Positions 2,822 through 64,000 of a stretch of DNA of 64,000 nucleotides are shown here, one piece after another; position 1 is the first letter of the stretch; the number at the start of each line of letters is the position of its first letter. The notes below the pieces were generated by a model that was not told the origin of the DNA, made no database searches, and was given only the letters and a program-made list of their open reading frames with translations. Both the position numbers and the translations under genes were made by a program. Source of the stretch: Pegea sp. RAD2-039 (lineage: Eukaryota > Chordata > Thaliacea > Salpida > Salpidae); the NCBI GenBank assembly GCA_034620365.1, contig JAQGEQ010000192.1:2289001-2353000 (forward strand), written 5' to 3'.

Positions 2822-4944
2822 TCAAAAGCCCGGCATTCTGGAATGAGATTTCTGGTGAAGAGCCTGTTGTTGATTGTTCAATGGCGCGCTTTTGTTTTGA
2901 CCAGTTGATGTCACAGTGGAAGATGTAGCTGTAAGAGCTGCCTTCTGTTTCAGCATGGTCCAATCGAAGATATAATCGTATTGGTGGTTGAGGGTGCGGA
3001 AAAGTATACGGAAAAGCTACAAGATAATCGTGATTATTGATTAGCGATGTTTGTGTTGCGATTGAATAATCTAAACAAATATTGACTTTAATAAAGGACT
3101 GGATTTGTTGCTCAAAATCTAGAAGCTTATTTAGCAGTGTGTTGAATAAACTAGTCAATAAAATTGTCTAATGATAAATTATAATTGTAGCTGATTAATC
3201 GAATATTCATGGCCTTGTAAGCCAATCATTTTCACTCATTACTAATATCTTCAATTTTAAATAAATATTTATAAAAATAAAAGTAAATAAAAGAATTTTA
3301 TTACTAATATTTGAAAAATAAAAATATTTTTATTGCTATGAGCTATTATTAAATTAATGTGTATAGAAAATACCACAGATTTATAAACTATTTTATAATT
3401 TCATGAACATTTCTTGTATCAATTACTAATTTTTATTTAACCACTAAAATATAAATGATAATGATGAAAAAGTCAGTACCTGTCTCAAATACATATAATC
3501 AGGAGCTTCTTCAAATCGTAAACCTCGACTATAGTTCAAATACATTGCAAACTCAGCAGGAAAACTTTTACAAAGCATCTGTTTAGAAAAAGAATTCTTA
3601 GAAATACATAATCAACTCAGTAGAAGTTTAAAGAAACAAATTTTATAAGAGCTGAAAACATTTGAGTTTACATATATTTCATTATTGAAATATAATTACA
3701 GAGAATGAATATAATATATTCTACTTAAATTAAATCAAATTTAGTAAAAATTATAAAAATGATTCAATTAATAAAGTAATGTTAAAATGACATTTAAGAT
3801 ATTGCTATAATGTAGAAACTTATAGATTATAAGCTGGATCAAAAAATTAGTTATCACAATCAAGTCTATAATAAAATTATTTTTAAGTTAAACGATAAAA
3901 AATGATTAATTCTTGAGTTTAATAAACTATATAGTTTAATACCACAAGCTTAAAATGTTTTATTGTTTTTTAATCTATTTAAACAGCCATCTGATAAAAC
4001 CAATAATAATGATCTATTAAAACTATCATTCATGTGAATAAAAACTAAATCAAATTAAGCTACAAATCAATTATAGTTGAGTTTTTATGTTTACAATTAA
4101 ATTAAAAGTATAAAGCAAGAACTAAGATAACTCCATCAAGAGCAATATAAATATATCAATAAACATACAATTTAGCTTTACATAGATATAATAAAAAAAG
4201 AAACCTTACCTCTATTGGTGTGGCCATTTTTTTTTCGCTGATTCTTTCATACTTTTGTTTCTTAGTATTGGCTTTTAATCCTTGCCATGGTAAATGAGTT
4301 CGATTGAAATACATTAAAACATATCCAAGTGATTCCATATCATCCCTTCGACTCTGTTCAATTCCAAGATGAGCATTTACTGAAGCATATCTTGCAGTTC
4401 CAGTCAGATTCTTATCTTCTCTATACAGGACATGCAATCTAGTACGACTGTCCCGATATTTTTTTGCAAGACCCAAATCAATCAGAAATAACTTGTTACA
4501 ATGCCGACCAATGCCCATCAAAAAGTTATCTGGCTTAATGTCTCTGTGAATGAAGTTTTTGTTGTGGATAAATTCAATTCTACTAATCATCTGATCAGCC
4601 AACATCAAAACTGTCTTCATTGTAAATCGACGTGAACAAAAATTGAAGAGGTCCTCTAAGCTGGGCCCCAACAAATCCATTACCAACACATTATATTCTC
4701 TTTCCTGTCCATACCATCTAATATGTGGAATGCCAACACCTGCCTGGAGTATTTTATAAACTTTACTCTCATATAATAATTGTGGATGTCGAGCACGTAA
4801 TGGTTCAAGCTTTACAGCAACTTCTTCACCATTTGCAATATTAATTCCCAAATAAATATCACCAAACGAACCACTTCCAATTTTTCGTACAAGGCGGTAC
4901 TTGCCTCCTACAATAAACTCTCCTTTTGAAGCGTTGGAGGCCAT
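2822..4944 (-). CDS. CSNK1A1: Casein kinase I alpha (Ser/Thr kinase)
   Basis: Cytosolic and nuclear kinase of the CK1 family, which acts in Wnt/Hedgehog signalling and priming phosphorylation. Three exons read on the minus strand: 4944-4210, 3578-3480 and 3016-2822, with donors GTAAGG and GTACTG, giving 342 residues against 337 in human CK1-alpha. Visible in order: glycine loop GSGSFGDIY, catalytic lysine in [16 protein letters not shown] catalytic loop, [13 protein letters not shown], the CK1 signature around [13 protein letters not shown], and the C-terminal [21 protein letters not shown] block ending in PGF. The start ATG at 4944 fits the family N-terminus [17 protein letters not shown]. 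One oddity is that the Mg-binding DFG triplet reads DLG, and the nearby conserved PYRED reads LYRED. Alpha rather than delta/epsilon follows from the N-terminus and the short tail. Identity is very secure. Confidence 0.96.
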
Positions 4945-7650
4945 TATTTGAATATCTTTAATAATTTCTTACAAAACACTCAGCACATAAAATTTTGAGT
5001 TTAGTTTTATCAATAATTAGTTTCTAAAATCAAAAAGTAAATATTATTAAAGGATTTCATAAACAGCTCTCAAAGTTTTATATAAATCAAGCTACACAAA
5101 AATGTTTTCAGCTCAAAAGAACTTAGCTTTGAATGACTAACCAATAAAGTTTAAATAGAATACTTGATTTGTATTGTACTAGATAAGCAATAATTTAAAT
5201 ATAGTTGCTAAAAAGTGTTTAAATATATATAGAAAATATTATTGTCTAATAAAACAATAAAATTATTTCTATAAACTTGAAAATAGTTTAAATAAATATT
5301 TAAATATAAAACAGTGGAAAGTATGCTTTTAAATTAGAGACAGTATCAATAAAACCATTTTTAGCTTTAAGTAATTTTTATTTATTTAGTTTTATTTATT
5401 TAATTTTATTTCAATTAAATCTATTTATTTATAATCAAAAAATAAATAGATATTATTTTAAAATTTCATGAACATCAATATATTTCTCTAATATAAAAAT
5501 GTTGAGCTAACAACATTATAAACAACTGATTCTATTCATTAAATATTTTTAAAGAAACTTGTTAAGAACTACTATAAATATGTAAAGAGTTTAACTAATG
5601 ATTATATCGACTACTTATATAATACACTTAAATTGCCCTTTAATTATAAAAGTCAGATAGAATAACATGTTTTCAATTTGTCATAATTGCCATTAGAGTA
5701 AGTCATATTTTATATACCTAATAAGATATCAATGAAAAAAGGAATTACCATATGAATCATCAAAAAAATTACTTTAAACATAAACTTTTACCTTTTTTAA
5801 TTGTTTTCACATTTTCATTTAATTTTAATCTATATACATATAGAATACATAATAAAAAAAATCAAGTAACTATTATAATATACTAAAAATAAATTAATGT
5901 TACTTCCAAAAATAAAGTAACCTAACTATAAAAACTCATGACACTTTGATATACTAAATGTAGTTTAGGTTTTTATAATAAAATAAGCAGCCTAAAACTA
6001 TTGTAAAACTTATGAAGTAAAATAAGCATAATTTACCCAAACATAATTATGAAATAAAGTACTTATTTTTTAAGTTGAAATTACAGCAGCCAAAGTAAAG
6101 AAAAACTAAATAAGTTATATAAAGAATTACCCAATAACATTTGAAACCAACTTTTTAAAAATAACTCTAACTGTTCATGAGAAGCAGAAAAGTAAGCTTT
6201 CTAAAATTTTAGAACAAATGCATTTAAAGATATATAAAATAAATCAAATACTTTATACAAATTATTTAATTTCATAAAAAGATTTATAACATATAAAACT
6301 GTTTTAGCGAAAATAAATCAACAGAAATAAATATATCAAAGTGAATGCTTTGAATATATAAAGTTCAAAAATCAAACTTGTATGTTAATATTTTTTGAAA
6401 TAAAATAAATTACTAATCAACTACTATATAACTACTTTAAAATAAAAAAATAATGTTCAAGTAAAATCATATTAAATTAAAAGCAAGAATTCTTTACTTT
6501 ACCATAAAAATGAACTAACACATCTCTAAAAAAATATGAAGCAGAAGCAAAACTCCAGTTGGGTAACTTACATATTTTTTTAATGTTGAACTATAATGAT
6601 TGATAGATGATTTATACCATTAATCATTCAAAACCATAACAAACTATAATAGTCAACACTTAAAAAGTTAATTAAGCTATTAAACTGAAAAGGAATTCAG
6701 AAATAACCATCTAGGCCTAGATCAAAATAAATCTAGGAAACTGTTCATGTTTAGTTATAGCAGGTTATTCTTTATTAACAGTCTACATACAATTTTTAGT
6801 GTAGAGCATACTACAGAGAGCCAGAAGTGACTGAAAATCTAAATTAAAAAATTGAATAAGGCCTATTATTATCATATGTAAAATAGGTGCGGCAGCGATG
6901 AAGATAACACAAAAATCACTTGACCATGACATTTTCCGTGTCGTGGCAACAGACAAAACCTTTATACAAAAGACTTATAAAGAATCGATTTTTAATAAAT
7001 ACAGCCTCAAGTTGTGGCTAAAAATTTGGTCAAGTATTTGTTTTAAGTATTTATATGGTTGATAAACTTTTTGCAAAAAATATAAATAACTGAAGAAACT
7101 CATTAGCAGCAACTTTATCATTTTTGTACAATGAGAGCTGTGTGGCAAAAAAAAGATTAGAGTGCAACTAGAATGATTATAGAAAAAAAGATGATAGCTA
7201 AATTGCATTTTATTGATTTTTTTCGCAACAGTTTAAATACAAAATTTATTTCGATGCTGAGTTTTCGTCATAATGAACCTAAAAATGAACAAAGTAAAGA
7301 AACGACGTACCAAAGAACAAACCGCTTTTGTTGTTTATATATAGCATTTATAAATTATAAAACTGCTTTACAAAAACAATACAGAAGGACTATTACTTAA
7401 ATTGTTATATTGATAAGGTGTTGCCATGTAAACATTTGTAATACTTGTAAAGCCTTGTATTATTTCAAAGTCTTTAAAAAAATCAACTGCGTGACAACAA
7501 ATGTTTTAAAACATGTAAAGTGGATTCTTCATCGTTGATGAACTTCTAAATTGTTAATAATTTTTTGTGATGTAAAAGTTTAGGATAATTGATTTCAAAA
7601 AACAATAAACACATCGAGTTTTAAAAACCTGCTGAATCATCTGTAAATAA
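4945..7650. other. Intergenic AT-rich region, probable CK1-alpha promoter side
   Basis: No coding exon recognised. The only less AT-rich stretch is around 6880-6960 and could be a promoter or 5' UTR exon of the minus-strand CK1-alpha gene; that is a guess from base composition. The open frames near 6975-7400 have no family resemblance. Confidence 0.4.
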
Positions 7651-26102: not shown

Positions 26103-28221
26103 ATGACTAGTCAAGTAGTTTGTGGTTTGATCAGACATTCAAGATTAGTATTCCGTCATTCAACTGTGACACACAATGAAGCTTCTAAAGTAATTCAAAA
26201 CATTTTTGATGATATTTATAATTAATACAAAGTATGCAGCTATATATAATTACAAACTAATATCAACCGAATGTATAAAATTTTTTCTCTAATTAATGTT
26301 ATAAGTAGGTGAATAAACACAGCTAATTTAAACCAGTTATTAACTTATTAAATTTTTGTGTTCTACAGTGCATTTCAACTAATAAGCTAATATTACAAGC
26401 CATTATCATAATATCAGATATTATTTATTAATTAGATAATTTGTTATTAGTAGTAATTATTATGAATAATAGCAACAACATGATAGTTTTACAAAATAGT
26501 TGTAAATATCATAATTTGGTTAAAAACAGTTTGATGTATGCTTATAATAATATAAATATATTTTTATACTTTATTGTTTGTTTTACTGACGGAAGTACTC
26601 ATCAATTATTTGCTGATTTTCAGATACTTTCAAGAAACTTTTCTTCAAGCTCTTTATTAAGAAATGACAAGTTTCTGTTTGGGGGTCCATATAAATACAT
26701 CTCTGATTTGGAATTTTTAGAACCAAAAGTTGAAGATGTGATTTCAACATATAGAGTCATGGATCACCATGGAAACATCCTCAACCAATCACAAGATCCA
26801 AAAGTAACTACAATCTTTTTCAAACTTTTTTATTCCATAAATTCAAATCAGATATTTTATACAAATTTCTATTTTAAGCTTCCAGATGATATGATTATGA
26901 GAATGTATAAGGCTATGGTTCTTCAAAACACTCTTGATGATATAATGTATAATGCTCAACGCCAGGGTAGAGTTTCTTTTTATATGACTAATTATGGCGA
27001 AGAAGCTACTCAAATTGGTAGTGCAGCTGCCTTAGATGCCACTGATTTGGTGTTTGGACAATATCGTGAAGCTGGTTTGTTTCTATGATGTCATCTGAAC
27101 ATATTCACGTGACTTGTGATCTACAGGTGTGCTTATGTGGCGTGGATTTCGTTTAGATCAGTTTATGGATCAATGTTACGCTAATAAGAATGACCCTGCA
27201 CAAGGAAAACAGATGCCTGTTCATTATGGTTCAAAAGAACTCAACTTTGTTACAATCAGTTCTCCGTTAGCTACACAAATGCCTCAAGTAGGAGACGAGA
27301 CATCTTTTGCTCTTCTCAAAATTTGTATTACAAAATGAGATCTTCATCTTTGATTCACTAAACAGGCCTCAGGAGCAGCATACGCTTTAAAGAGAACTCA
27401 TCCTGGCTCTTGTGTGATCTGTTACTTTGGTGAAGGAGCTGCCTCTGAAGGAGATGCTCATGCTGCTTTTAATTTTGCTGCAACGTTGGATGCACCTTGT
27501 CTTTTCTTCTGGTACTCATCTTATTTCTATCACATCAGATGAACAATTTTCAAACTTTTCAGCCGTAACAACGGATACGCCATCTCCACACCTGCTTCTG
27601 AACAGTATCGTGGTGATGGTATTGCTTCTCGCGGTTCTGGTTACGGAATGTTAACTATCCGTATGGATGGAAATGATCTCTTTGCTGTTTTTAACACTGT
27701 TCGAAAAGCTCGTGAAATTTCTGTGAAAGAAAATCGGCCAGTACTGATCGAAGCAATGACGTATAGGTGAGTAAGTAGATGATGAAGATGTGAGAATGAT
27801 TGAAGTTGATTTGTAGAATTGGACATCACAGCACAAGTGATGATAGCTCAACTTATCGTACAAATGAAGAAGTTGCTTTTTGGAAGCAGAATTATGATCC
27901 AATTGAAAGAGTAAAGAAGTATTTGATCAATACAAGAAAATTGTGGTCTGAAGATGAAGATAAGTTGTTTATAAAAAGCTCGAGAAAAGAAGTTAGTGTG
28001 TCAGGGAATTAGAGATTTTGAAAATAATTGTTTTTCTTCCTCAGATTCTTGATGCTTTCTCAAAATCAGAAAAAGTTTTGAAGCCCTCCCCTTCTCAAAT
28101 TTTTATTGATGTTTATGATGAATTAACTGATAACTTAAAACGTCAAGATGTTGAATTAAAAAATCATGTGTCTAAGTATAAGGAGAATTATCCTCTACAA
28201 AATCATGAACCATTTCAATAA
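26103..28221 (+). CDS. BCKDHA: Branched-chain 2-oxoacid dehydrogenase E1 alpha, mitochondrial
   Basis: The alpha subunit of the thiamine-diphosphate E1 component oxidatively decarboxylates the oxoacids of Leu, Ile and Val in the mitochondrial matrix. Eight exons join in frame: 26103-26189, 26624-26803, 26879-27074, 27127-27287, 27366-27511, 27563-27766, 27817-27991 and 28045-28221, giving 441 residues (human precursor 445). Exon 1 is a basic, Ser/Arg-rich presequence ([12 protein letters not shown]), as expected for mitochondrial import. Diagnostic blocks are [58 protein letters not shown], the ThDP site [20 protein letters not shown]...[10 protein letters not shown], and the phosphorylation loop [17 protein letters not shown] with its regulatory serines conserved. 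Lengths and phases close without a break, so the gene looks intact. Confidence 0.97.
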
Positions 28222-33194: not shown

Positions 33195-33914
33195 TTATAA
33201 ATCAGAATATTCATGAGCTATTTTCTCATCTCTTAACCATAAAAAATTACATAAGGAGTTAAGAAAAGCAGAATTCTTCATAAAGTTTTCTTTGGCATTT
33301 GTTTCAACATTTTGTATTCTTAAAATATCTGCTTGAAGTTGATCAGAAAGACTTTTCAATTCATCATCAGTAATATCACTTTGAGAATATTTATCCGCTT
33401 TAGTACCCAAGATAATACGCAGGGGTTCTTTTTTGAAGTTTTGATGTGAAAACATATGATGATTTTGTGTTATTTCATTGAAACTATGTCTATCTATAAA
33501 TGAAAATGTATACATAATACAATCTACATTATCCATACAAGCTGGCAAAATATGTTCAAACTTTTTTAATGCATAATCACCGGCATCCCAAAAACTTAAA
33601 GTGAAAAAAAGAATTTGACCAGTTGAAAGTAATCTAACAGGCCAATAAACAAGACCAATTGAAATTCCTGCAGAATAACTAGATGCTTTTATGTGTGGTG
33701 TCCCTAATAAATTATGTACAGTACTTGATTTACCAACACCAGCCTTTCCACTTAGAAATATGTTATATTTTACAAAGCTGATACTCTTATTTGGTGCTAG
33801 TGATGGTTTTTCAAGAAGACCAAACTGTTTTCTTCGGCCATGGTTAAATAATGAGTTTACATAATCTTCAGAAGCTTTTGTATTGATCCATTCAAAATCT
33901 ACAACTGTAGTCAT
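33195..33914 (-). CDS. CPLANE2: CPLANE2/RSG1, Rab-like ciliogenesis GTPase
   Basis: Small GTPase-like protein needed, in vertebrates, for recruiting intraflagellar transport proteins to basal bodies as part of the CPLANE module. A single 239-codon exon is complete from ATG 33914 to stop 33195. It shows the family N-terminal block (RKQFGLLEKPSLAP..SI.FVKYNIFLSGKAGVGKSS), where GKAGVGKSS is the P loop. It also has the WPVRLLS..ILFFTLSFWDAGDYALKKFEHILPACMDN segment, in which the switch II DxxG is replaced by WDAGD as in RSG1, and the guanine-specificity motif GTKADKY in place of NKxD. The length is near the 258 residues of the human protein. A splice-like AG lies four bases before the ATG (AATTTAG, then AAGT and the start), suggesting trans-splicing or a 5' UTR intron. 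Confidence 0.92.
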   Translation of the reverse strand: MTTVVDFEWINTKASEDYVNSLFNHGRRKQFGLLEKPSLAPNKSISFVKYNIFLSGKAGVGKSSTVHNLLGTPHIKASSYSAGISIGLVYWPVRLLSTGQILFFTLSFWDAGDYALKKFEHILPACMDNVDCIMYTFSFIDRHSFNEITQNHHMFSHQNFKKEPLRIILGTKADKYSQSDITDDELKSLSDQLQADILRIQNVETNAKENFMKNSAFLNSLCNFLWLRDEKIAHEYSDL

Positions 33915-35976
33915 ACTTCTAAATTAATAATTTATTAAATACATCTAACTATGAAAAAAAAATAAATGTGATTTTTTTCAAGTAAATGACTTATACGATA
34001 TAGAATATACTAAATACTAATAAACTAAAATCAGTCCTGATTTTAATTATTTTACTTCTCACAAATCTAAAAAAGGATAAACAACTGCAATCAACCAGTA
34101 GTAAACTGATCACAAATTTGTTATCACTTTTTAAATATTCAGTTTAAAATTATTGTGCCAAACTACCAAACTGTACTTTTACGATTTTGAAACTTTATCA
34201 ATATAATTTACTGTTTAAACAGTTTAAACAAATTTAAACGGTAAAACAAATTCTGATCTATAGAGTTTTTTTCCTTAATGTATTTGACTTTAATATATTT
34301 AAATATTAAACTTATTATATTAATGATTTAAACTCCTTTTAAACAGCGAATATTAGTGATGAATAATAAGGTGTAGGCAAATAACCAAAGACCAATATAA
34401 CCAATAAACAATATGATTTGATTATGTATTGTCATCTGATATTTTAAAAGGTTTAGTTTAAACTCTCATTGGATATATTATTTATATTACGTATATTTAC
34501 GTACCTCCACTTCAAAACCCTTTGACTTTTGCATAAAATCTTTTTCCTAGTAAAACTTATTTCTAACAAATTTTGTACTTAGTGATCAAAATTACTAAAA
34601 ATGTGTTTACTTCGCCCAGCGTAGAAAAACGTTTGCTTGGCGAAAGGTAGAGGCTTTAGAAATAACTAAATCAAAAATGAACTAAAATGTGTAAAAAAAA
34701 TTATATTTCTAAGATCTTAAAGTTCGACATAATTAGTCTTTTTTAATTTTGATTTACTTATGTAGTTTCATTTACTGCCTAATTGCTTTAGTTTTCTTGA
34801 GTTTTGATTTCAAAGAATAATTGTATTTAATATGGTTTTAGCAAACATGAGTAAACATACAAAACTTTCTTTATAAATAAGTAAAGTTAGATAAAAGCTT
34901 GCACATAGTCATGTTTCTGCATAGAAAATTATGAAGTTTAAAAATTTTGCTGAAAAGCCATAGAATTTAGGATAAAACTTTTGAAAAAATAAATTTTTAA
35001 ATTACTTTAAATTGTTTACATCACTTTTATTTATAAATTTTCCAGACAATGGTAATCCTTAACTTCGATATACTTAAAAATCTATTATTTTTATGATATC
35101 TGGTCATATTCTAAGTAATTACACTTAGACTTTATTTCCGTAATTTTGAGTCTTTTTATTTATTTTGTTATTAATTGTTAGTGTTTATTACTGAATATCT
35201 TTATTTTTTATTTTACTTTTTATCCAAGGTGATATTTTACAGCTTCCATTTTTGATAACTTGACAAAATTAAACTTTACAATAGTCGTCCACATATACCA
35301 TCTACACTAAATTTCAAAAAAGTTTTTTTGTTTTTATATAATCTATATCTCAGCTGTGAAATATAAATTTTCATAATATTATTTATTAATATATTATTAT
35401 TCTAATTTTTACAAGTATTTATTGTTTTTTTTTTTTTACAACTGCTGTGATGAAAATGAATTATATTTATAATTGGATATATTTATTTAAATCTATTACT
35501 TAAAATGTTTGTTAGTTGTGGTTAACCATTTTTTTTTAAAGCTTAGTTTTGAATTTTTATTCAATTTACTTTGATAGAATTATACAAAATAATTGTTATA
35601 ATAATATATTGAGTAAATTATATTTAGTAAATATTAATAAATTACTGATTGATTGCTTGAATACTTTCATAGAATATTGTTATTTTACAAAAATCTTATG
35701 AATTAAATGTTGTTTTTCATGTTCTGTTTTGTAATTATTATCAAACAAAATTCTAAATGAAAATATTAAATATTTTGATATAAATTTATTTATTTAATCA
35801 ATTTTTTGAATGTTTTTTATATAAAAATGTTAAATGTATTTTGTTTATTTTATTTCAATAATTTAAAAGATTCACTTAAATTATTTTTAATAAATTGTTA
35901 AATTTAAATTTATAATAAAATTAAAATGTTAATTAATAAAAAGTTTTTTGTTATTCAGGTAATGGATAACTGAACC
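33915..35976. other. Divergent intergenic region between CPLANE2 and BAF60
   Basis: AT-rich with no exon recognised. A GC-richer hairpin lies at 34611-34644: TTCGCCCAGC pairs with GCTTGGCGAA with one mismatch, around a 14-nt loop. A strong acceptor-like TTATTCAG ends near 35958, 18 bases before the BAF60 start codon. Confidence 0.45.
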
Positions 35977-50746: not shown

Positions 50747-51901
50747 CTAAACATTTTTTTTCAAATTTCCACCTCCAGCAGGAATTTCAAAGATTTGATC
50801 AACATTATCATCTTTTGATCTAATGTTCAAGGTATATAAGTCGCCAGCCTTTGTGATTGAAATAGATATTGAAGTTTTAAACTTATTTTCATCTAGCTTG
50901 ATCCAAGCAAAAGCGGAAGAGTTAATAAAAACAAATGATGGTAACATTTTCACAGCATATTTGATAACAGTGGAAACATAACTATCTTTATAACTATTCT
51001 GAGGTACTTGAAAAAGATTGATAAATTTGTTTTTGTAAACTGCTGCAATGAATTTAGAATCAGAACTAAAAGTTAATAAAGTTATTTCACCTCCAAAATA
51101 ACAACTCCGAAATCCACAAAGTTTTACCCCATCGGGTATTTCAAACAATCTCACAATGGTACCACATCGTGAAGCTGTAGCTAAAAATTGACATCTAGAA
51201 TCAATCGCTATTTTACAAACTTCTTGTTTGTGTGATACAAAACTTGTAACTTCTCTTTTTTCATCCATATCAAAAACTCGAACCTTACCAGGACTTCTCA
51301 AAGATGCATAACTCATATATTTCTCACTGTAGCTAATTATATTACTAAGATCATATAACAAATCACAATGTTCTATTTCTAAAACTTCATCTTTTATAGT
51401 GTAACTTGCATACCGCTGTTTTTTCAACATCACAACACGGCTGGTTGTAACAAAGATACTTTGAACACCTTCTTCATATATACATTCATGCTTAGCTTCT
51501 TTTGTGCTTCGATCAAGAAGAAGTATCTTATTTAAAGATGGACAGAGCAATACAATCATTGAACGACATTCGATCTCAAACTGAAGATCAAAACTTTCTT
51601 CAAAACAGCTATTAAAGATTCGCTCACTGAAAACATGTTTTATAACTTTTGGTTTATTTTCCAATTTTTCGCGTGTTATGGTTATTTTAGACCTAAAAAT
51701 ACCTAACAATCTCCCAATAATATTATTTAGTGCAGTTGTAATCATTCGAATTAAACCAAGTCTTCCTTTAAGGAATAGAATTGATGAAGTATCTTTTGCA
51801 ACATCTTCAACAGATGTTTTTTTAACACATAATGACATAATTTCGTTTGTAGTGTTCACCCAGAAATGAATAATGATATTAATCAAATTGACTATAAACA
51901 A
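50747..51901 (-). CDS. WIPI/Atg18-like beta-propeller protein, intronless, FRRG lost
   Basis: PROPPIN family members bind PI3P/PI(3,5)P2 on autophagic and endosomal membranes. This is one uninterrupted 384-codon frame, unusual among intron-rich neighbours. Family blocks are recognisable: VQSIFVTTSRVVMLKKQRYASYTI (blade with '+V..++ +I.VY'), then SPGKVRVFDMDEKREVTSFVSHKQEV and LATASRCGTIVRLFEIPDGVKLCGF. Next are LLTFSSDSKFIAAVYKNKFINLFQVP and a C-terminal blade with TKAGDLYTLNI. The lipid-binding FRRG motif is replaced by FRSC, so both the second Arg and the Gly are missing. The first Met (51901) is followed by a hydrophobic stretch atypical of the family; Met22 (51838) may be the true start. 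Divergence and lack of introns suggest a retrocopy or fast-evolving paralogue, closest in layout to WDR45/WDR45B. Confidence 0.75.
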   Translation of the reverse strand: MFIVNLINIIIHFWVNTTNEIMSLCVKKTSVEDVAKDTSSILFLKGRLGLIRMITTALNNIIGRLLGIFRSKITITREKLENKPKVIKHVFSERIFNSCFEESFDLQFEIECRSMIVLLCPSLNKILLLDRSTKEAKHECIYEEGVQSIFVTTSRVVMLKKQRYASYTIKDEVLEIEHCDLLYDLSNIISYSEKYMSYASLRSPGKVRVFDMDEKREVTSFVSHKQEVCKIAIDSRCQFLATASRCGTIVRLFEIPDGVKLCGFRSCYFGGEITLLTFSSDSKFIAAVYKNKFINLFQVPQNSYKDSYVSTVIKYAVKMLPSFVFINSSAFAWIKLDENKFKTSISISITKAGDLYTLNIRSKDDNVDQIFEIPAGGGNLKKNV

Positions 51902-54132
51902 CTATAATAGAAAACATTTCTGTTATTATTTTCAACATAGATTTATAAAGCAATAAAACATTATTTCTTTTCATTGAGGTTGTTCAGTTAAGTTTTTAGT
52001 AAAGCATCTTTAAAATGTGATAATTTAATAATAGATAAAGCAAGATAAATTCCATTTAATACCAGGCTGGAGCAAAAACTTATATTTTTAATAAATTCGG
52101 TTAGAGTTAAACAGCATCAAATGAATTTCTAATTAAAGGTTGAATACAAACAAATTAAAAATAGATGAAAGAAAATGTTACAGGAAATATTAACTTAAAT
52201 AAGATTTAACAATAATCAAACGATCAATAAAACCAATTGCAAACGACAATGGAATTTTTTATAGTTTTTAATTAATGTAACAAATAAAAAAACTGCTTAT
52301 CAAACTTTATAATGACAGAAAGATTTAAATAGAATATACAGAATTTTAGATACTTGTAGTTTAGTTACAGAAGTATATATTTCTTAACTATACATAAAAA
52401 ATATTATACAACCATGAATATTACTACTTTTAATAAGATTCTTTAACGATTGTTCCACACTTACTTATCAGTTTTAAAAGCACTGCACTACATGCTTAAA
52501 AAAATAGTTAATCAAAATAATCAAACACACATTAAAAACTATACTGAATAAAATCAGCTCAAAAATACTAATAAAAAATAAAAATAAGTAGCATTACTGT
52601 TAAAACATTAACTGATAATTATAAAAATTGTTCTGATCCTTTCATAACAGCTTCAAAAATATACTAAACTGATGATTATCATTGAAAAACTTTAATCTCA
52701 AGTAACTTACATTCAAAGCTCTTTAAAAGATTATGATATGATATCAAATGATTTTTGCAAACAAATAAGTTTTTTTGTTTTTGTTGAAACTTAAGAATAA
52801 AAAATGCTAACTTTTGCACAAGCAAATTATTAAAGCTATGAGGCAAAAATTTAATCAAAATTCTTTCTTATGGGGAAATATTATCAGAAATATCAAACTT
52901 TACAAAAAAGATCATAATTGGGTAACAAATTTTGCTGAAAAAGGCTTGCTTTAGTGGATAATTTTCGAACAAGCTTAAAAAGTTGTTAGAATTAACAAAC
53001 GTCTTAAATGTTTTTTTATTTATTTTGAAAGATAACTAAAATCAAGTTAAATGAAGAGGAAGTAATCAAGCAATTTTTTTTCCAATTTTAAGTTTAATTC
53101 ACAAAGCTTTTTCTTTAGCGCATCATTTAACATCTAAAACATTTCTAATAAGAAATGTTCTTGAGCCATGATGTACATTTGTGTACTAGATAAACAGATT
53201 AAATAATTAATATATTTGTTCCATTGAAAAAGGAAAGAAATATTTTTAGAAATATATTTTTCAAAGCTTTATTTGAGAGAACTTACTTAAGTTTTGTAAA
53301 TATGATAGAAATGTTAATAAAGTTTGGTGATTAAAAGAAACTAAATAAACAGCTGCTACAATTACCAGACTTAATATTCTAACTACTTGCTTTGAGTGAT
53401 TACATTGGGTTTGTATAAATGATTAATTTCTAACTTCTCTATATAAACAAATATGAAAATCAGAATTTTGTTGAGATGTTTTTGCTGCAGCGAATAAAAC
53501 TCTTTTTTATCAAATTTTTATCGAAACTGATTTTATTTTTAAATTAATTTTTTGAAGTTATCTAAATATACTCTTATTGAGTGGGAGTGTTTCCAGAGTT
53601 TAAAAAACAAATGATAAAAAACTGTTTTTTTTTTAAATTTCAAAATTTGTTTATTTTAAAAACAGTTGATAAAAACTGAGAATGAAATATGAAATTGTGA
53701 AAACGATAAAAAATTTCGAAACCTCAAGAGGGAGTTTTTGTATCAGTTGATAACAAGTTGCTAAAGTTTAACAAATTTGTTGCTTAAAAAATCTTTGTAT
53801 GTTTGGATACTGTGCTGAAAAACTTACTTTTATGTGAGTGTTTAGAAATATTTTATTTTATTCTCAAAGCTAGATGAAATTGTAACATTTTGAGTCACTA
53901 GATTCAATCAAACTAATAGAGATTCAATTTAAAGACATTTTTCAACAACAACAAATTTATTTGCCGCTTTGTAATATTGAAAACATGAAGGTAATCACAA
54001 AAAGTCAATTTTACGAGAAAATATGAATTAAACAGAAGAATTTTGGTGACAAACAATCTCAGATACAATCATCATCACTAATATAAACTCACAAACGATA
54101 ATTACATCAAGCTTACATTTCAGTGACGACAT
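51902..54132. other. AT-rich intergenic region between WIPI-like and cathepsin D genes
   Basis: No exon, repeat or RNA gene recognised. It should hold the promoter of the WIPI-like gene at the left and the 3' UTR of the cathepsin gene at the right. Confidence 0.4.
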
Positions 54133-56303
<2,171 letters not shown>

Positions 56304-58400
56304 TTTGACTAATCTATAAAATAAGGAAGTTTAGATAAGGTTAGATAATCTTAAGTAATGAAGAAACATATTACAAGTTTAAAATCAAGCAATTACTCTT
56401 CATAATAAATACAAAGTTTTTTAATCTGCACATCAATACAAACTAACCTAAATATTCAAAAAAAATTATCACAAAACATATTATTAAAAATCTATTTATT
56501 AATTAATAAAATATTAGATAAAATAATTTATAGTTTAGTTGTTATTTTGTAGTAATGTTTATCATTTTATTCCAGATATAAGTTATTAAAATGATCAACA
56601 TTCAACTACAATCTAAAAAAATAACAACAAACAGAAATTTAATGATAGTAATTAAAATCCAATTAAGTAAAAATAAGAATCAACGAAAAGGAAACAACTT
56701 TAATACTCTAACAAAGCTAATTTTTAGTAAAAATAAAAAAGATAGAAAATGAACTAAAAGCATAAAATAATGAAACAGAAAATATCATCCGATTATTGAA
56801 AATAAAAAAATTAGTTTAGATGTACTCATAGACAGATTAATGATAGAAATCAATTTTTGAGAAAAAACGATAAAATGAATAACAACAGGAAACTAAAATG
56901 CTTAGCTTAATTATACGATTTATTATCTACAAAGACATTTACAGTCTGAAGAATAACCCAATAAAATCAAATAATCGAATTTAAAAGCGGAAATTAAAAT
57001 GTAAACTTCAATAAATAAGTTGTTGATAAAGTTTGCAAAATCACGTGACAAGTAAAAGGATGTTATTTTAAGTTATAAATCATAAATCATAAGAAAATTA
57101 GTTTTGTAAAACGTTCTCATCTGATTATTCTTTTTAATATCTATTAATATTTTTGAGACCATTTATATAACCAAACTTTACAAAAACACTACGTAATATT
57201 CGCCTGCAAATTTATATTGTAATAAAACACCTATTTGTCCTTTTAGAAATATTATTTTTTATTTTGTAAAGTAGGATTATATCAACTAGTATAGATGTAA
57301 TATACAGGAGTTACTAAATAAATAGGTTGCAAAATAATAAGATCATGTACAGTAGAAATTCTTTAAACAAAAATATTCTCGAAGAGAGTTAATAAACTTT
57401 CTGAGGAATTGCTTGATATTGAAATGTTAAAAATCCATTTGAAATAACTTTTAACCCAATAAAATATAAAAACAATTTTTGATAGTTCATTTCGTATGTT
57501 TTTAAAATTTTCTTAAATAAATTGATTCTTAAAAATTCAAGAATTGCCTCTTAATTTTAAGAAAATGCAGCGAGCATCAAGTGATGAACTAACAAAATAT
57601 AGCAATTTAAAAAGTATCTTCTTTTTCTTGGTACTAATTTATATTATTGTTTCAGCTAATATTTTTAATTTCAAGTTTACTCTGTAGTTTCGACTACTTA
57701 ATTTATCAAACGTTTATTTTGTGCAAATTCATTTTCGGTGAATGTTTGCTTTGTTTCATTTAGCTTTACGAAAGAGAACTTTAAATATATTTTCTTTACT
57801 GAAAACTGAATTTGATTAATTGTTCCGAAAGTATCAATAAACGATCTAATGATTAAACTAGGATAAATTATAGAATGATTATGCGCAAGCAGTCTAATGA
57901 TAATATTTACATTTACTTTAAGATTTTTTAACTACTACAAACAAAAAATCCTGAACTTTGACTTTAAATTTCCTAATTTTGTTAACTTCTATTTAACAAA
58001 ACTTTGTACTTGCAATTTTACTAAATACTTTAACTAAGATACGCTATTCTAAGGTGTTTAGATTATTTAAGTTGTATTTGAAAAACAATTTTAACGCTGT
58101 TTACTCTTAGTAGAAATATTCGTTGAAATAATTTTTTTTGCTGTAGTTTCAAATTTTTCCAGCTTACTGTGTCGTTTTAAAATAATGATAAAAAAATAAC
58201 TGTTTAATAGTAAAGAATAGGTATTGGTATGTTTTATACAATAGAGCATGATTTAGGTCTTATTTATAACGATTACTGAATATTTTCATTTAACAATGTT
58301 CTCGCCAAGACTAATAAAATTATCTAAGCTTTAACTAATTGATTGTTTTCTAGTAATTATACAAGGTATTATTATTTACTAATTATTTGTCCGTCTCCAT
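56304..58400. other. Intergenic region upstream of the cathepsin gene
   Basis: Very AT-rich; no coding exon or structured RNA recognised. Confidence 0.4.
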
Positions 58401-58403
58401 TTT

Positions 58404-58800
58404 GTTGCGGTTACCACTTGAGCGGATAACACGTGTAAGATACTGGGCTCGAGCCTGAGCGGACACATTTGCGACAAAGGAAAGTCCATAAAAAATTTGG
58501 GTAGAAGAGTCTTACTAGTCTGTTTCATGACAGCATTTCTAGAAGACGCTAAACTCCGAATTTAAAGCCGGAGTTGGAGCCTTGTAAGAAGTTAGTCACT
58601 ATACTCAATGTCGTTATGGTAGCTCTTGCGACACCAGCTGGGCGTAGCCGCATTACTTCATCTGTTCCACTGCATGCTTTGTTGGCCTATAGAGTAGAAT
58701 CCTGCTGCATGAGTAATAACTGGGTCTCTATAATTTTTACCCTGGCTTAAAGCATCGCCGTTCTCGCCCGAAGCAGGCCATACTACAACTATTATTATTT
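58404..58800 (+). repeat. SINE-like repeat, tRNA-like head and about 300-bp body
   Basis: The element starts with a tRNA-like head (GGTTACCACTTGAGCGGATA, then a B-box-like GGGCTCGAGCC) and continues through GGAAAGTCCATAAAAA into a GC-richer body, ending in a short (ATT)n tail. The body (for example the blocks at 58540-58625 and 58725-58780) is clearly homologous, in reverse orientation, to 62510-62720. This shows a dispersed repeat rather than unique sequence. It has no coding capacity. Confidence 0.7.
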
Positions 58801-60375
58801 GGAAATTATTTATTTTGACTTCTGATATCTTGCTTTAAAACCCCTGAATATCCAATAATTTACCAGAAGAAACTCTTTCCTAACTTTTAATAGCTCTTTT
58901 TTATAAGAAAGTATAAAAGTTAGTTGAATATTAATATCTTTATTCTTAATTAATTTTTGTGCTCTAAATTATATCTATCTGTTAATTATGCTAACTATTT
59001 ACTATAATCATATCCAATTAAATTCAAAGAATGCTTTTTATGTGAATATTACGTATAGAATAAATTTGTTCAGCAAATTTTGTATAAAGATTAAAAATGT
59101 AGTTTTTATGGTAAACGCAACGAGATTTGTAGTTTAGTTTTAGATTTAGGATATTCAGATGTGAAACGTTGAATAAAATAAGGTAAGTGGCTTTCTTCTC
59201 ATTTCTATTTACTGGTTCGCATTATTGTCACATGTGTTTTTGTTGATTTGATTAATATTTGCATTTTTTGCTTTATTGAGCTTATCGACCTACAACCACA
59301 AAATGATCTGCACTATTGTATACTAGCAAACAGCATTTCAGAAATATTTGTTTCCTTTGATTGAGTCGCAATGAATATCCAAAAAGTTAAAGATGAGAAT
59401 ATATTTGAGATTACATTAAACTGCAAAATTAGTAATGATCTCAAATATTACAAAACTTTATTTGCTGCTTACAATTAAGATTAATGGTTGTATTTTTTAA
59501 TAATTAAAATTCTTCAGGTGAATACTAGATAAAATTTATTGGAAATCTGTATAATATAATTCATCAAAAGTCTTATCTTTTAGCAATTAGATTGAAAGTT
59601 TATTATATAAATCTATGATAATTTATATAGTTGAAGCTACTGTAGCCTATAACTTAGTTATTTTGAAAGAACTTGGTTTATATAAAAGTGTATGATAGTT
59701 CTAAAATTTAACTTATATAATTAACATCTACAAAGTTATTTTAAAAGTCAAAGTATTAAATGGTTTTGAAGCTCATAGTTTTTATGCAATTTATTAATCA
59801 TATTCAATAATTTTCTGATATCTTTTTATTGTTTACTAAGATTATGTTATTTTTTCATAGTTTTTATTTTATGGATATTGTAGCTAAATTTTAAATTATG
59901 TTTCAATTTACATTTTTTAATCATCTAAAATTTATTTTCTAAGAATTGTCAAATTTTTATCCTCTATTATGACAAGTTTTCTGTTATAAAGTTTTTGATA
60001 AACTTATTTTGAACCTTTTTTTCTACACTAATTTTTAGGGAATTTCTTTTTTCTATAGCTGCAATATATACTTCTCCTTTTGGTAGTTTTTTGTCTATAT
60101 GTGTTTATAAGTCATAGGGGTTGTTTATGGTGTTTGATTAGGTTTTTTTTATTTGTTAGTGATGTTTGATAGATAGACGTCAAGATTTAGATTTGTAATT
60201 AACGTTGGCATTTATTTGTTTTCATCACTAAGATATTTTCATATAGATTCCTTAAATAATGTAAATATTCAGTTTTAAAAAGTATTTAAATGATAATTTA
60301 AAAAAAATACTATAAACTGCTCTTGTAGTAATAAAATTAAATTCAACATTAGTGATATCATTTCAGTTTTGTATA
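58801..60375. other. Intergenic promoter-side region of selenophosphate synthetase
   Basis: AT-rich. An acceptor-like ATCATTTCAG ends at 60366, ten bases before the SPS start codon, and may be a trans-splice site or end a 5' UTR intron. No other feature seen. Confidence 0.4.
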
Positions 60376-63356
60376 ATGGCTAGTGAAATGTTTTCCTACT
60401 CTAAATGGAATCCAACTGAGTTTAGCTTGGATCCAAGTTTTAGACTCACTAATTATACTGGCTTAAAAGGATGAGGATGTAAAGTCCCTAGGAATGTCTT
60501 GCTCAGGCTTCTTGAGGGACTTGGAGATGATGACCAAAACCATAACTCACAAGTGATTCAAGGTTATGGTTTTGGTTCTCCCAAAATTGGTGAGATTTAG
60601 TTGAAAGTTTGAAATCAAACAGAACCCATGTCTTTACAAAAAGCTGTATCCAAATAGCCTTATCATTTTGTGGTTGCTAGCTAAATCAAATATCTCTTAC
60701 TTTTGATAATCTTTAGTTGCCCATTTATTTTATAGATGGCACTGAGATCAAAATTTAACCCAGTTGATCATGGATTACCGTCTTACTTCCATTTGACCAG
60801 ATACTCCAGTAAATTATTTTTTCTTTTTTCTGTAACTTATAAACTTCTCAAATCACTCTGGTCTTTATTAAGGTCTTCATGGTGCTGCTTGCAAAATTCC
60901 AAATGATCTTTTAAAAAGTTTTCTTAGCGAATTCAATACACAATATCAACGTGATGAGTATTTATCAAATATGATGTACCCGGTGCTAGGTGAGATTAGA
61001 CAGCTCTTTGTATAGACATGGGTTTTCTTCTGCTTCTTTTTTTTTCCATTTCAAAAGAAGCTTGATTTTTAATGGATTATTTTTCTAGGAATTGGACTTG
61101 ATAGTTGTGTGATTCCACTACGTTTTGATGGACTTTCATTAGTACAAACTACTGACTTCTTTTATCCTTTAATTGACGATCCTTTCATGATGGTAGGTAA
61201 TTCTAAATTAAACAGTCTAACCTGAGCCAATTGATTTTTCTATAATACTTTTATGGTGTTAATGTTACAGTTTTCTTATCATACATTATTTATTAAACTT
61301 ATTTTTATGTTGAAGGGCAAAATAGCCTGTGCAAATGTTCTCAGTGATCTGTACGCGATGGGTGTTGTAGATTGTGATAATATTCTCATGTTACTTGGAG
61401 TTAGTTCAAAGTTTACAGAAAAAGAAAGGGACACTGTTGTGCCACTAATAATACAAGGCTTTAAGGTAATTATTAGTTGTAGAGCAAAGTTTTGGTTTAT
61501 TATTTTAGCTGTATTTGTGATTGCAATTTGCAAATGATTAGTTTATTTTGATATCTTGTTTTTTATCTACTTTTATCTTTTTGTTTTAACCATCAGTAAA
61601 TAAAGATTAAAGTTTAAATACACAAACCAGTTGGTTGTAAGCCCTCTAATCAGCTGTCTTTACTAATTTGCGCTTTTCAAACACTAAATATTTGCTCCCT
61701 GAAACTAGGAAGCCGCAGGTGAAGCAGGAACTACAATAAACGGAGGTCAAACCGTTTTAAACCCTTGGTGTTTGATTGGAGGTGTAGCTACATCTGTTTG
61801 CCAAAACAATGACTTCATAATGTCAGTTTGAAGTTAATTAAATTAGTAAATGTAAAATAACTTACTTGATTTAGGCCTGATGGTGCTTGTCCTGGCGACG
61901 TGCTTGTTCTTACCAAGGCACTTGGAACCCAAGTAGCTTGTAACGCACATCAGTGGATGGAACAGAATAATGATAAATGGAATAAAATCAAGCATATCAT
62001 CTCAGCAGAAGAAGTTGAAAAGGCTTACAACGATGCTATTCTCAGTATGGCACGTTTAAACAAAAACGGTGAACTCCCCTGTTAAATACCTCACATGTGT
62101 CTTCAAATATCTGTTTCAGGCGCTGAGCTAATGCGAAGGTTTCCATGTCATGGTGCTACTGATGTCACTGGTTTTGGTATTTTAGGGCACGCAGATAATT
62201 TAGCAAAGCAGCAACAACATATGGTTACTTTTGTAATTCATAATTTACCTTGTATTAATAAAATGGCGATGCTTGCAAAAGCCTGTGGCAATTTATTTGG
62301 GTTGTTACAAGGAACGTCAGCTGAAACATCTGGTGAGAGATCCTACAAATCTCGATTGTGTACTTGAATGATAATCTTTCAGGCGGTTTGCTAATTGCCT
62401 TACCTCGTGAACAAGCTGTTAAATACTGTTCAGAGATGAAAAAGACGGAAGGTCACCATGCCTGGATTGTAGGTGTTGTTGAAGAAGGTAGATTTTATAT
62501 TCCAAATTTTTTATGGTCTGCTTCGGTCAAGAACGACCATGGTGTAAGCCAGGGCAGAATTTATTGAGGTCCAGTTGTTGCCAATTCAGTAGGTTCAATC
62601 TCCATGCAAACAAGATTATGTAGCGGAAGAAGCTGCCAGAACGACACTAGGTACAGTGACCAACTGCCTATGAGGGTCCAACTCCGACTTTAAATTACGT
62701 CTCCTAGAAGTCTTGGCATTAGCCAGACTCAAAAAACCCCTTTTAATGTCATGCCCGCCTGATACCCGGAAATTCCCGGGCTAACACATATTTCCAACGA
62801 GGGAAAGTCCATAAAAACCCGATTAAAAGCTGCAATTAATAATCATTTATCGTTTCAAGGTCCAAAGTTGGCGCGGATAATTGATAAGCCCAGAGTAATT
62901 GAAGTTGAAACTTTACAAGATGGTACAGTCCAAACTGTCCCTACAATAACTCAACGCGAGTCTTCATCAGTAAGTTCAGAAACTTATCGGCACTCGAATG
63001 GTTTATACATCAAATTGAAAAATGTGCTTGCGTAGGATGTCAGTTGAATCTATAAATAGTCGAAATATTTATGTTTACACTTAACCTTTATCTACTAAGG
63101 TTAAATATTTGAACTTCAAACAATTTGTTGTTGATTCTAATGTTTCTATTAAATTAAATATTTCTAGAATAAGTTAAATAATATGGCGAGTCTACTACAC
63201 CAAAGTACATCTGAACTACGTCCAATGCGTTTACAAGACTCATCAACATTACAAGAAGTCAGACATCAACATCACAAAATCTTCTTCTAAACATTTGATT
63301 GATTCTAGGTGATGGTACAACAACCACAAGATAGCAACGAAGAATATCCTAACTAG
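60376..63356 (+). CDS. SEPHS2: Selenophosphate synthetase, selenoprotein (SPS2 type)
   Basis: Makes monoselenophosphate from selenide and ATP, the selenium donor for Sec-tRNA synthesis. Exons: 60376-60589, 61089-61192, 61316-61465, 61709-61821, 61875-62068, 62120-62332, 62383-62487, 62860-62969, 63168-63257 and 63309-63356; phases all close, giving 446 residues if TGA is read as Sec. The first exon reads [19 protein letters not shown], so the TGA (residue 33) sits exactly where the family has Sec or Cys. Downstream: [129 protein letters not shown] and [12 protein letters not shown]. The C-terminal tail after about residue 395 is not conserved and its two last introns are less certain. An alternative 5' exon block replaces exon 1 (separate entry). 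A SECIS follows the stop. Confidence 0.96.
60472..60474 (+). other. In-frame TGA, selenocysteine codon
   Basis: Codon 33 of the first SPS exon, between GGA and GGA-TGT-AAA. The frame continues open for a further 38 codons to the donor at 60590, and the flanking residues match the GUGCKVP motif. With a SECIS in the 3' UTR, recoding as Sec is the natural reading. Confidence 0.93.
60736..60989 (+). CDS. Alternative 5' exons of selenophosphate synthetase (Ala isoform)
   Basis: Two exons, 60736-60808 and 60873-60989, encode a second SPS N-terminus: [19 protein letters not shown] joined to [17 protein letters not shown]. It aligns with the Sec exon ([31 protein letters not shown]), with Ala at the Sec position. 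The block ends CTA-G|GTGAGATTAG in phase 1. The Sec exon also ends in phase 1 with GTGAGATTTAG, and both fit the acceptor of the exon at 61089. The block's ATG directly follows an acceptor TTATTTTATAG, so its 5' end could be a trans-splice site or an internal promoter's product. The resulting isoform would have 438 residues and need no Sec. It cannot follow the Sec exon in frame as an added exon without changing the N-terminus, so mutual exclusivity is inferred, not shown. Confidence 0.8.
62500..62828. repeat. Rearranged SINE-like repeat inside an SPS intron
   Basis: Nearly the whole 372-nt intron 62488-62859 consists of this repeat. The left part (62510-62740) matches the body of the 58.4-58.8 kb copy in antisense orientation (for example GTCCAACTCCGACTTTAAAT). 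The right part (62758-62822), containing GATACCCGG and GGGAAAGTCCATAAAAA, matches that copy's head region in sense orientation. It is therefore either an internally inverted copy or two abutting truncated copies. Confidence 0.65.
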
Positions 63357-63518
63357 TTTTCTTAAAATCTCCTAACTACCAATACTCATCGTCATCTCAT
63401 TTACTAATTTATTTTTTTTTGTATTTTTTCCTATTTGATAACAACTGTAGATCGAGCTATATGTTAAGTCACCTACTCAGCTTGAGCAACTTGTGTTATG
63501 TGACTTAACTTTAGCTTT

Positions 63519-63600
63519 AAAAGCTGAATAAGGTAATGGCGTATGTGACGTTTCATTTCTAAAGCAACTTTGACGGAAATGAAACTGATTTTTAGCTTTT
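63519..63600 (+). promoter_or_regulatory. SECIS element in the SPS 3' UTR
   Basis: Eukaryotic SECIS core: GTGA at 63545-63548 and TGAT at 63586-63589 form the non-Watson-Crick quartet. The 5' arm GTTTCATTTC (63550-63559) pairs perfectly over ten bases with GAAATGAAAC (63576-63585). The 16-nt apical loop begins TAAAG, placing the conserved AA 12 nt after the GTGA, as the consensus requires. The lower helix may be AAAAGCT (63519-63525) with AGCTTTT (63594-63600). It starts about 160 nt after the SPS stop codon and directs Sec insertion at the TGA at 60472. Confidence 0.93.
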
Positions 63601-64000
63601 ATTCTTATTTATCTGTTTCTACTTCATGTTCGAAAAACAAACGAGTTAGAAAATAGATTAAAATGCAATTTGTTTTTATCACGCAAACTTGACAATTACA
63701 AAATATTTTAGTCAATTGATTAATTTGATGATAAAGACAGAAATTAAGAAGTCAAAATCTAAGATTAATCATCTGATAAAAATCCTTCATTGGAAACTAC
63801 AAATATAAACCACGTTGAAAGCTTGTTAAAAAATTTCATTATTATTTTAGAAATCACTTAACAAAGATAACAATTTAACTCTTAGGATAAACTTTCTGCT
63901 AACTTCAAAAAATGATTAATTTTAACTGGTATCAGCTGCAAGCTGTTAATTTGATCAGTTTCTAAGAAATTTAATCACTGGTCACTCAATAGGTAAGTAT
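63601..64000. other. Downstream of selenophosphate synthetase, no feature seen
   Basis: AT-rich. ATTAAA near 63659 could serve as the poly(A) signal for the SPS transcript. No other gene begins before the window ends, as far as I can tell. Confidence 0.35.

Follow-up and report, generated by a model that had tools for sequence, protein, structure and literature searches.

A stretch of 64,000 nucleotides from the salp Pegea sp. RAD2-039 (contig JAQGEQ010000192.1; called the window hereafter, with positions counted from its first letter) carries on its + strand a tunicate selenophosphate synthetase (SPS) gene with two alternative beginnings. A body of nine common exons, from 61089 to 63356, is preceded by a block with an in-frame UGA in the position of selenocysteine (the Sec block) and by a second block of two exons that has alanine in the same column (the Ala block), while the introns on either side of the Ala block contain the two arms of an inverted repeat. 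The 13 SPS matches in the assembly, G000 (105,744,746 bases in 387 contigs), are all located inside 2.6 kb on contig C3, and the search of these 105.7 Mb found neither a further SPS locus nor another non-Sec SPS. The protein predicted for the Ala form matches the human SEPHS1 structures 3fd5 and 9hjt over its full length (E 1.1e-162). Among the 120 listed of 7,633 matches, the nearest named relatives are tunicates, the matches listed including Styela clava (70% identity over the whole query), Phallusia mammillata (71%, likewise over the whole query), Ciona savignyi (75% over 91%) and Clavelina lepadiformis (76% over 84%). When the common part is placed in a tree of 23 rows, the window groups with P0001 (a protein considered below) and five other sequences (100/99), within a set that holds the named tunicates. 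A search of G000 for COX1 gave no match.

This arrangement has a precedent in ascidians. The Ciona gene SPS-ae is a single gene that yields Sec and Gly isoforms from alternative 5′ exon structures; both isoforms are also reported in Molgula tectiformis and were later sorted into two genes in Styelidae and Pyuridae, so that tunicate SPS-ae is regarded as a case of alternative isoforms preceding gene duplication and the split of functions (PMC4561486). The Gly isoform of Ciona rescues a fly SPS1 mutant, and the residues found in SPS1-type proteins are diverse, namely Thr in human SEPHS1, Arg or UGA in insects, Leu in annelids and Gly in tunicates (PMC4561486). The original prediction, made from the letters of the window, had proposed a single SPS gene whose 5′ blocks, Sec and non-Sec, are alternatives, and had referred it to this tunicate arrangement; the single locus, the exons and their frames agree with the former proposal, and the match with SPS-ae, as far as the source covers it, bears out the latter.

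As previously claimed, the two blocks share the end phase 1 and are compatible with the acceptor of the common exon at 61089; the joins are of the GT..AG type. Their donors, GTGAGATTTA for the Sec block and GTGAGATTAG for the Ala block, have the core GTGAGATT in common. Joining of the blocks to each other is another matter, with a frameshift if the Sec block is linked to the first Ala exon and an in-frame Sec–Ala chimera if it is linked to the second. Because such joins give a frameshift or a chimera, something must presumably keep the two blocks apart. The model of the Sec form is backed by P0001, a 405-residue intronless protein derived from a 1,706-base JGI contig and 98% identical over 84% of the query. 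It spans from the Sec block, starting nine residues beyond the UGA, across all nine common exons, and is consistent with the junction 60589-61089 as well as the eight that come after it. Since the assembly yielded no second, intronless SPS copy, the most probable origin of P0001 is a cDNA of the source species or of a near one; five amino-acid differences from the window in 405 residues lead to its being read as another allele or as coming from a sister species. Regarding the junctions originally put forward, 60589-61089 is thus in agreement with P0001, whereas the protein searches described below found no transcript for those of the Ala block.

Decoding of the UGA as selenocysteine is likely, given a SECIS-like (selenocysteine insertion sequence) match in the 3′ untranslated region (UTR) and a tRNA-Sec gene in the assembly. 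The former is a full-model match to the Rfam family SECIS_1 of 29.2 bits for a gathering score of 35 (E 0.0014 in a 751-base search); the latter is the one tRNA-Sec of G000 above the cut-off (79.1 bits versus 47) and has the anticodon TCA. Many sub-threshold tRNA-Sec matches of near-equal score (~45 bits) are seen on contigs C225 (1-42 kb), C284 and C283 of the same assembly, and are probably clustered copies of another tRNA gene. Two further signals were considered and set aside. A hairpin predicted at 60482-60522 (AAGUCCCU...AGGGACUU) begins 8 nt past the UGA, in the position of a Sec-redefinition element; it is no better than shuffled sequences (z 0.09; 97 of 200 as low) and is not claimed. 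The readthrough hexanucleotide is given as GGGUG[C/U] in PMC4561486, and the UGA of the window is followed by GGAUGU instead.

The homology of the Ala block is with the Gly blocks of ascidians. In a single frame the block scores at best 98 (BLOSUM62) against the Gly block of Styela, the maximum in 300 dinucleotide shuffles being 40, and the score rises to 166 when the two exons are spliced. Identities amount to 35/68 with Styela, 34/68 with Phallusia, 31/68 with sequence P0004 and 35/67 with C. savignyi, compared with 27/68 for human SEPHS1 and 23/68 for the Sec block of the same gene. The start MALR and the motif LHG are common to the Ala block and the ascidian Gly blocks, while the Sec block has LKG. 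Judged from these comparisons, the Ala block is the ortholog of the ascidian Gly block, an outcome of the alignment to SPS proteins that the original prediction had proposed. Around the Sec site (NYTGLKG-U-GCKVP in the Sec block) the alignment is ungapped, so the presence of Ala in the Sec column, read from GCT at 60884-60886, is unambiguous; the residue initially called therefore stands, whereas the published isoform has Gly (PMC4561486). Because of this orthology, the passage from Gly to Ala is best seen as a later change and the block as no recent tandem copy; a duplication, if there was any, would be as old as the ascidian Gly isoform.

The inverted repeat is an addition to what had been noticed before. 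Its two 30-nt arms pair at 26 of 30 positions by Watson–Crick rules plus one G-U, whereas the best 30-nt pairing reached in 2,000 shuffles of the two introns is 22/30, and at gaps of ~20-800 nt it is the sole pair of at least 25/30 within the 64-kb window. Between the arms is a loop of 352 nt whose only exons are the two of the Ala block, together with the acceptor and the donor of that block. Of the 30 arm positions, 24 are predicted to be paired at a probability of at least 0.87 in every one of the four folds that contain both arms, and keeping arm 2 unpaired in the 499-nt fold costs 29.6 kcal/mol. Complementary stretches in the two introns flanking the Ala block thus exceed chance, although the duplex energy of the whole introns is not distinguishing by itself (see below). 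An origin of the arms from a mobile element or a repeat family is not supported, as no further copies were found: a search of the 105.7 Mb with up to 3 mismatches returned, apart from the arms themselves with 0, a single place with 3, hence no extra copy at 2 or fewer, and BLAST of the two introns against G000 (a search that skips very common words) returned their own place only. All of this concerns the inverted repeat of one genome, G000; searches for DNA of relatives in viral and prokaryote collections found none.

Table 1. Features of the SPS gene in the window, with the basis of each assignment
Feature	Position	Strand	Basis
Candidate end of a non-coding exon lying upstream; AATAAG, then donor GTAAGTG (GT at 59183)	59140..59182	+	Sequence
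Acceptor-like sequence ATCATTTCAG, 9 nt (TTTTGTATA) ahead of the Sec ATG; candidate cis or spliced-leader acceptor	60350..60366	+	Sequence
Sec block, first coding exon, MASEMFSY...GLKG-U-GCKVP...SPKIG, phase 1	60376..60589 (214 nt)	+	Sequence; join to 61089 backed by P0001
In-frame UGA, predicted Sec codon	60472..60474	+	Sequence
Inverted-repeat arm 1, in the intron that follows the Sec block, 28 nt beyond the donor start	60618..60647	+	Repeat scan, folds
Acceptor-like sequence TTTATTTTATAG, directly abutting the Ala-block ATG; candidate	60716..60735	+	Sequence
Ala block, exon 1, phase 1	60736..60808 (73 nt)	+	Sequence, homology
Ala block, exon 2, ending ...PVLG, phase 1	60873..60989 (117 nt)	+	Sequence, homology
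GCT, Ala codon in the Sec column	60884..60886	+	Alignment
Inverted-repeat arm 2, 10 nt past the Ala-block donor start, ending 59 nt before the common exon	61000..61029	+	Repeat scan, folds
First common exon	61089..61192	+	Gene model, P0001
Common exon	61316..61465	+	Gene model, P0001
Common exon	61709..61821	+	Gene model, P0001
Common exon	61875..62068	+	Gene model, P0001
Common exon	62120..62332	+	Gene model, P0001
Common exon	62383..62487	+	Gene model, P0001
Common exon	62860..62969	+	Gene model, P0001
Common exon, tail	63168..63257	+	Gene model, P0001
Last coding exon, ...EEYPN, stop TAG at 63354-63356	63309..63356	+	Gene model, P0001
SECIS-like element of the 3′ UTR with the core UGAC...CUGA and an apical loop containing AA	63536..63599	+	Rfam SECIS_1, fold

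How the 5′ ends of the two messengers arise bears on the role of the repeat. The 5′ end may come from a spliced leader or from an upstream exon: arrays of likely leader genes are present in the genome and acceptor-like sequence precedes the ATG of this gene, while the donor at 59183 is the only one with the consensus AAGGTAAGT between 58801 and 60376. This donor is preceded by GAATAAAATAAG, which resembles the end of a spliced leader. Ciona has a spliced leader of 16 nt (PMC7986045), and this leader followed by GT has 315 forward and 270 reverse matches in G000 at no more than 2 mismatches, compared with 37 and 40 for the reversed pattern. The copies sit in tandem units of 198-200 bp, which are likely to be spliced-leader RNA genes. 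At G000:C4:1135044-1142219 and at locus L027, array units carry the exact leader ATTCTATTTGAATAAG, then GTAAGTG, a small hairpin (AGGAGTAATCTCCT) and a T-rich stretch. The likeness to trans-splicing in Ciona as covered in PMC7986045 thus extends to an identical 16-nt leader with its GT and to tandem arrays, with the difference that leader use at the SPS gene is here a candidate; moreover, the Sm motif of the 46-nt Ciona spliced-leader RNA, AGCUUUGG, has no occurrence in the array locus L027.

Taken together, these features incline us to the view that the SPS gene has a Sec and an Ala start and that the inverted repeat loops the Ala block out so that the blocks are used singly, a reading we hold to be somewhat better than even. 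What it builds on is the pair of blocks with their frames and splice-site sequences, the one locus, the repeat itself and the lack of further copies of its arms, and P0001 as a protein in which the Sec block leads directly into the common exons. In a Sec mode, the 5′ end of the messenger would be joined at 60366, so that arm 1 would be retained and would pair with arm 2; the Ala exons would then be hidden in the loop and the Sec donor drawn close to the acceptor at 61088, with avoidance of both the frameshifting join to the first Ala exon and the in-frame chimera. In an Ala mode, the 5′ end would be joined at 60735, arm 1 would be lost with the discarded upstream RNA, the stem would become impossible and the Ala block would be spliced to 61089. 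The products would be a selenophosphate-making SPS2 (the Sec form) and a protein of SPS1 type predicted to be devoid of that activity (the Ala form). Whichever the source of the 5′ end, arm 1 would be lost on a join at 60735 and retained on one at 60366, and the switch proposed here builds on this. We advance with some reserve, as a possibility falling short of even chances, that the switch is a self-enforcing one with two states, in which the first splice event at the 5′ end both picks the start and keeps or discards a stem arm, the Ala block being looped out solely in transcripts with the Sec start. If so, the choice of acceptor would at once settle the skipping of downstream exons, and one gene would yield a selenium enzyme or its Ala twin of SPS1 type with no mixed products.

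Several observations weigh against looping out, against the switch or against the two-form gene itself. As for the products, an Ala transcript is absent among the 120 listed of 7,633 matches; a search with residues 1-66 of the Ala form gave 6 candidates and no match, and one with two Gly blocks produced 4 matches out of 520 candidates, all four being Gly forms (from Phallusia, Styela, C. savignyi and one further source). P0001, which begins nine residues after the UGA, is silent on how this codon is read, and the SECIS match, besides scoring under the curated Rfam cut-off (29.2 against 35 bits), is absent from the scans of the whole window at the gathering score and at E up to 2. As for the repeat, 200 kb taken from 20 other places held two pairs of at least 25/30, one of them 26/30, so such pairs do arise; the duplex energy of the whole introns is -44.1 when the best of 1,000 shuffles reaches -45.2 (z -3.4), and nine other pairs among the introns of the gene and the 491 bases upstream have lower energy, each with at least one longer partner. 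By a looser measure, a first scan for repeats returned seven inverted pairs within 58000-64000, including two that are copies of an interspersed repeat, and arm 1 is predicted to be partly paired locally before arm 2 is transcribed. Finally, leader use at this gene is a candidate only, and if a single promoter lay ahead of the Sec block, the Ala acceptor would be contested by the Sec donor at 60590.

The most serious alternative is an ordinary SPS-ae gene with two promoters, the Ala messenger starting within or just before the Ala block and the Sec messenger upstream, the repeat being irrelevant. Alternative 5′ exon structures of SPS-ae are published in ascidians (PMC4561486) and, as just noted, a 26/30 pair was met once elsewhere in 200 kb. 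Against this, the sole pair of its kind in 64 kb brackets precisely the Ala block, no further copies of its arms were found and the stem is strong in the predicted folds; besides, without a stem nothing seen would keep the Sec donor from splicing, with loss of frame, to the acceptor at 60735. On these grounds two promoters with an idle repeat appear unlikely, while still deserving serious consideration.

The Ala block could also be a decaying exon of a former Gly isoform in a gene that now makes the Sec form only. In favour of decay, the protein searches found no Ala transcript, and the block departs at 6 of the 22 columns on which Styela, Phallusia, P0004 and human SEPHS1 all agree. It nevertheless keeps 16, including the Cys-Lys pair that follows the Sec column, and its two exons have open frames, GT-AG splice sites and phases that match. 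The ratio of block to body divergence points the same way, being 2.37, 2.85 and 2.60 for the window against three tunicate Gly proteins and 2.65 against human, all inside the range of 1.49-3.05 given by six pairs that exclude the window, so there is no sign of relaxed constraint on the Ala block. A pseudogenised second block, which would have undone the original prediction, is thus disfavoured by its open frame, its splice sites and its ordinary divergence ratio, and, as no other non-Sec SPS was found in the assembly, decay is improbable. Hardly different in standing, and perhaps a shade weaker, is the proposal that the arms chiefly drive back-splicing into a 190-nt circular RNA of the two Ala exons, skipping being a by-product. 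Flanking complementary stretches favour back-splicing and skipping alike (PMC8330042), and the Ala exons have the necessary acceptor at 60735 and donor at 60990, but their own ATG at the opening of the first exon and the ordinary coding constraint they keep would be unneeded for a circle alone. Lastly, a recent tandem duplication of the Sec exon in this lineage, suggested at the outset by the matching donors with their common GTGAGATT, is contradicted by the greater nearness of the Ala block to ascidian Gly blocks (35/68 with Styela versus 23/68 with its own Sec block), by the LHG and MALR features it has in common with them and by a DNA likeness of the two blocks or their introns that 241, 184 and 40 of 300 shuffles reached in three comparisons, and can for practical purposes be dismissed.

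As to the surroundings of the gene, six open frames of the window were tested against Pfam, and those recognised encode a protein kinase (4156-4968, - strand), a dehydrogenase E1 component (26432-27088, +), a Ras-like GTPase (33195-33923, -), a WD40/PROPPIN-like protein (50747-51901, -) and, in two frames, an aspartyl protease (54141-55092, -). An operon with an upstream gene is not supported, the nearest frame recognised by Pfam being this protease at 54.1-55.1 kb on the opposite strand; this check covered 20 open frames listed at 51900-60370, three of which were run against Pfam. An interspersed repeat lies in an SPS intron at 62500-62746 and has a diverged inverted copy upstream of the gene at 58559-58782; 55 matches to it are listed in G000, its own place counted.

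With ascidian SPS-ae as covered in PMC4561486, the salp locus has in common one SPS gene with alternative 5′ structures, a SECIS element in the 3′ UTR (SECIS-like here), a shared body and an orthologous non-Sec block; it differs in having Ala rather than Gly, on which account it is ranked as a variant and not among the SPS-Gly members, and in the bracketing intronic inverted repeat described here. How one SPS-ae gene separates its two starts is a matter on which no description was met in the parts of PMC4561486 covered, and a stem that brackets the non-Sec block is a concrete and testable answer to how the starts stay apart. The word alanine has 0 occurrences in the main text of that paper, and neither an Ala SPS isoform nor a loop-out stem in an SPS gene is named in the titles and abstract openings searched, in a library without most of the subscription literature. 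Like the SPS1 proteins, the Ala form has a residue other than Sec or Cys in the Sec column and matches human SEPHS1 over its full length, the differences being that it shares its gene with the Sec form and that the residue is Ala. The latter extends the replacements of SPS1 type reported in PMC4561486 (Thr, Gly, Leu, Arg and UGA), and the SPS1 role might need the loss of a selenium or sulphur atom rather than one given residue.

Complementary stretches in introns are known to act on the exons they enclose. In Caenorhabditis elegans (zip-2), their deletion reduces skipping of the enclosed exons (PMC8330042), in insect Dscam1 they govern mutually exclusive exons (PMC8042237), and human exons looped out by conserved pairings show lower inclusion (PMC8052449). 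The SPS locus resembles these cases, as far as the sources cover them, in the complementary stretches that lie in the introns around an alternative exon and in the loop-out predicted from them. It departs from them in two respects, in that the unit looped out would here be an entire alternative start, complete with an ATG, and in that removal of an arm would here follow from the choice of the 5′ acceptor.

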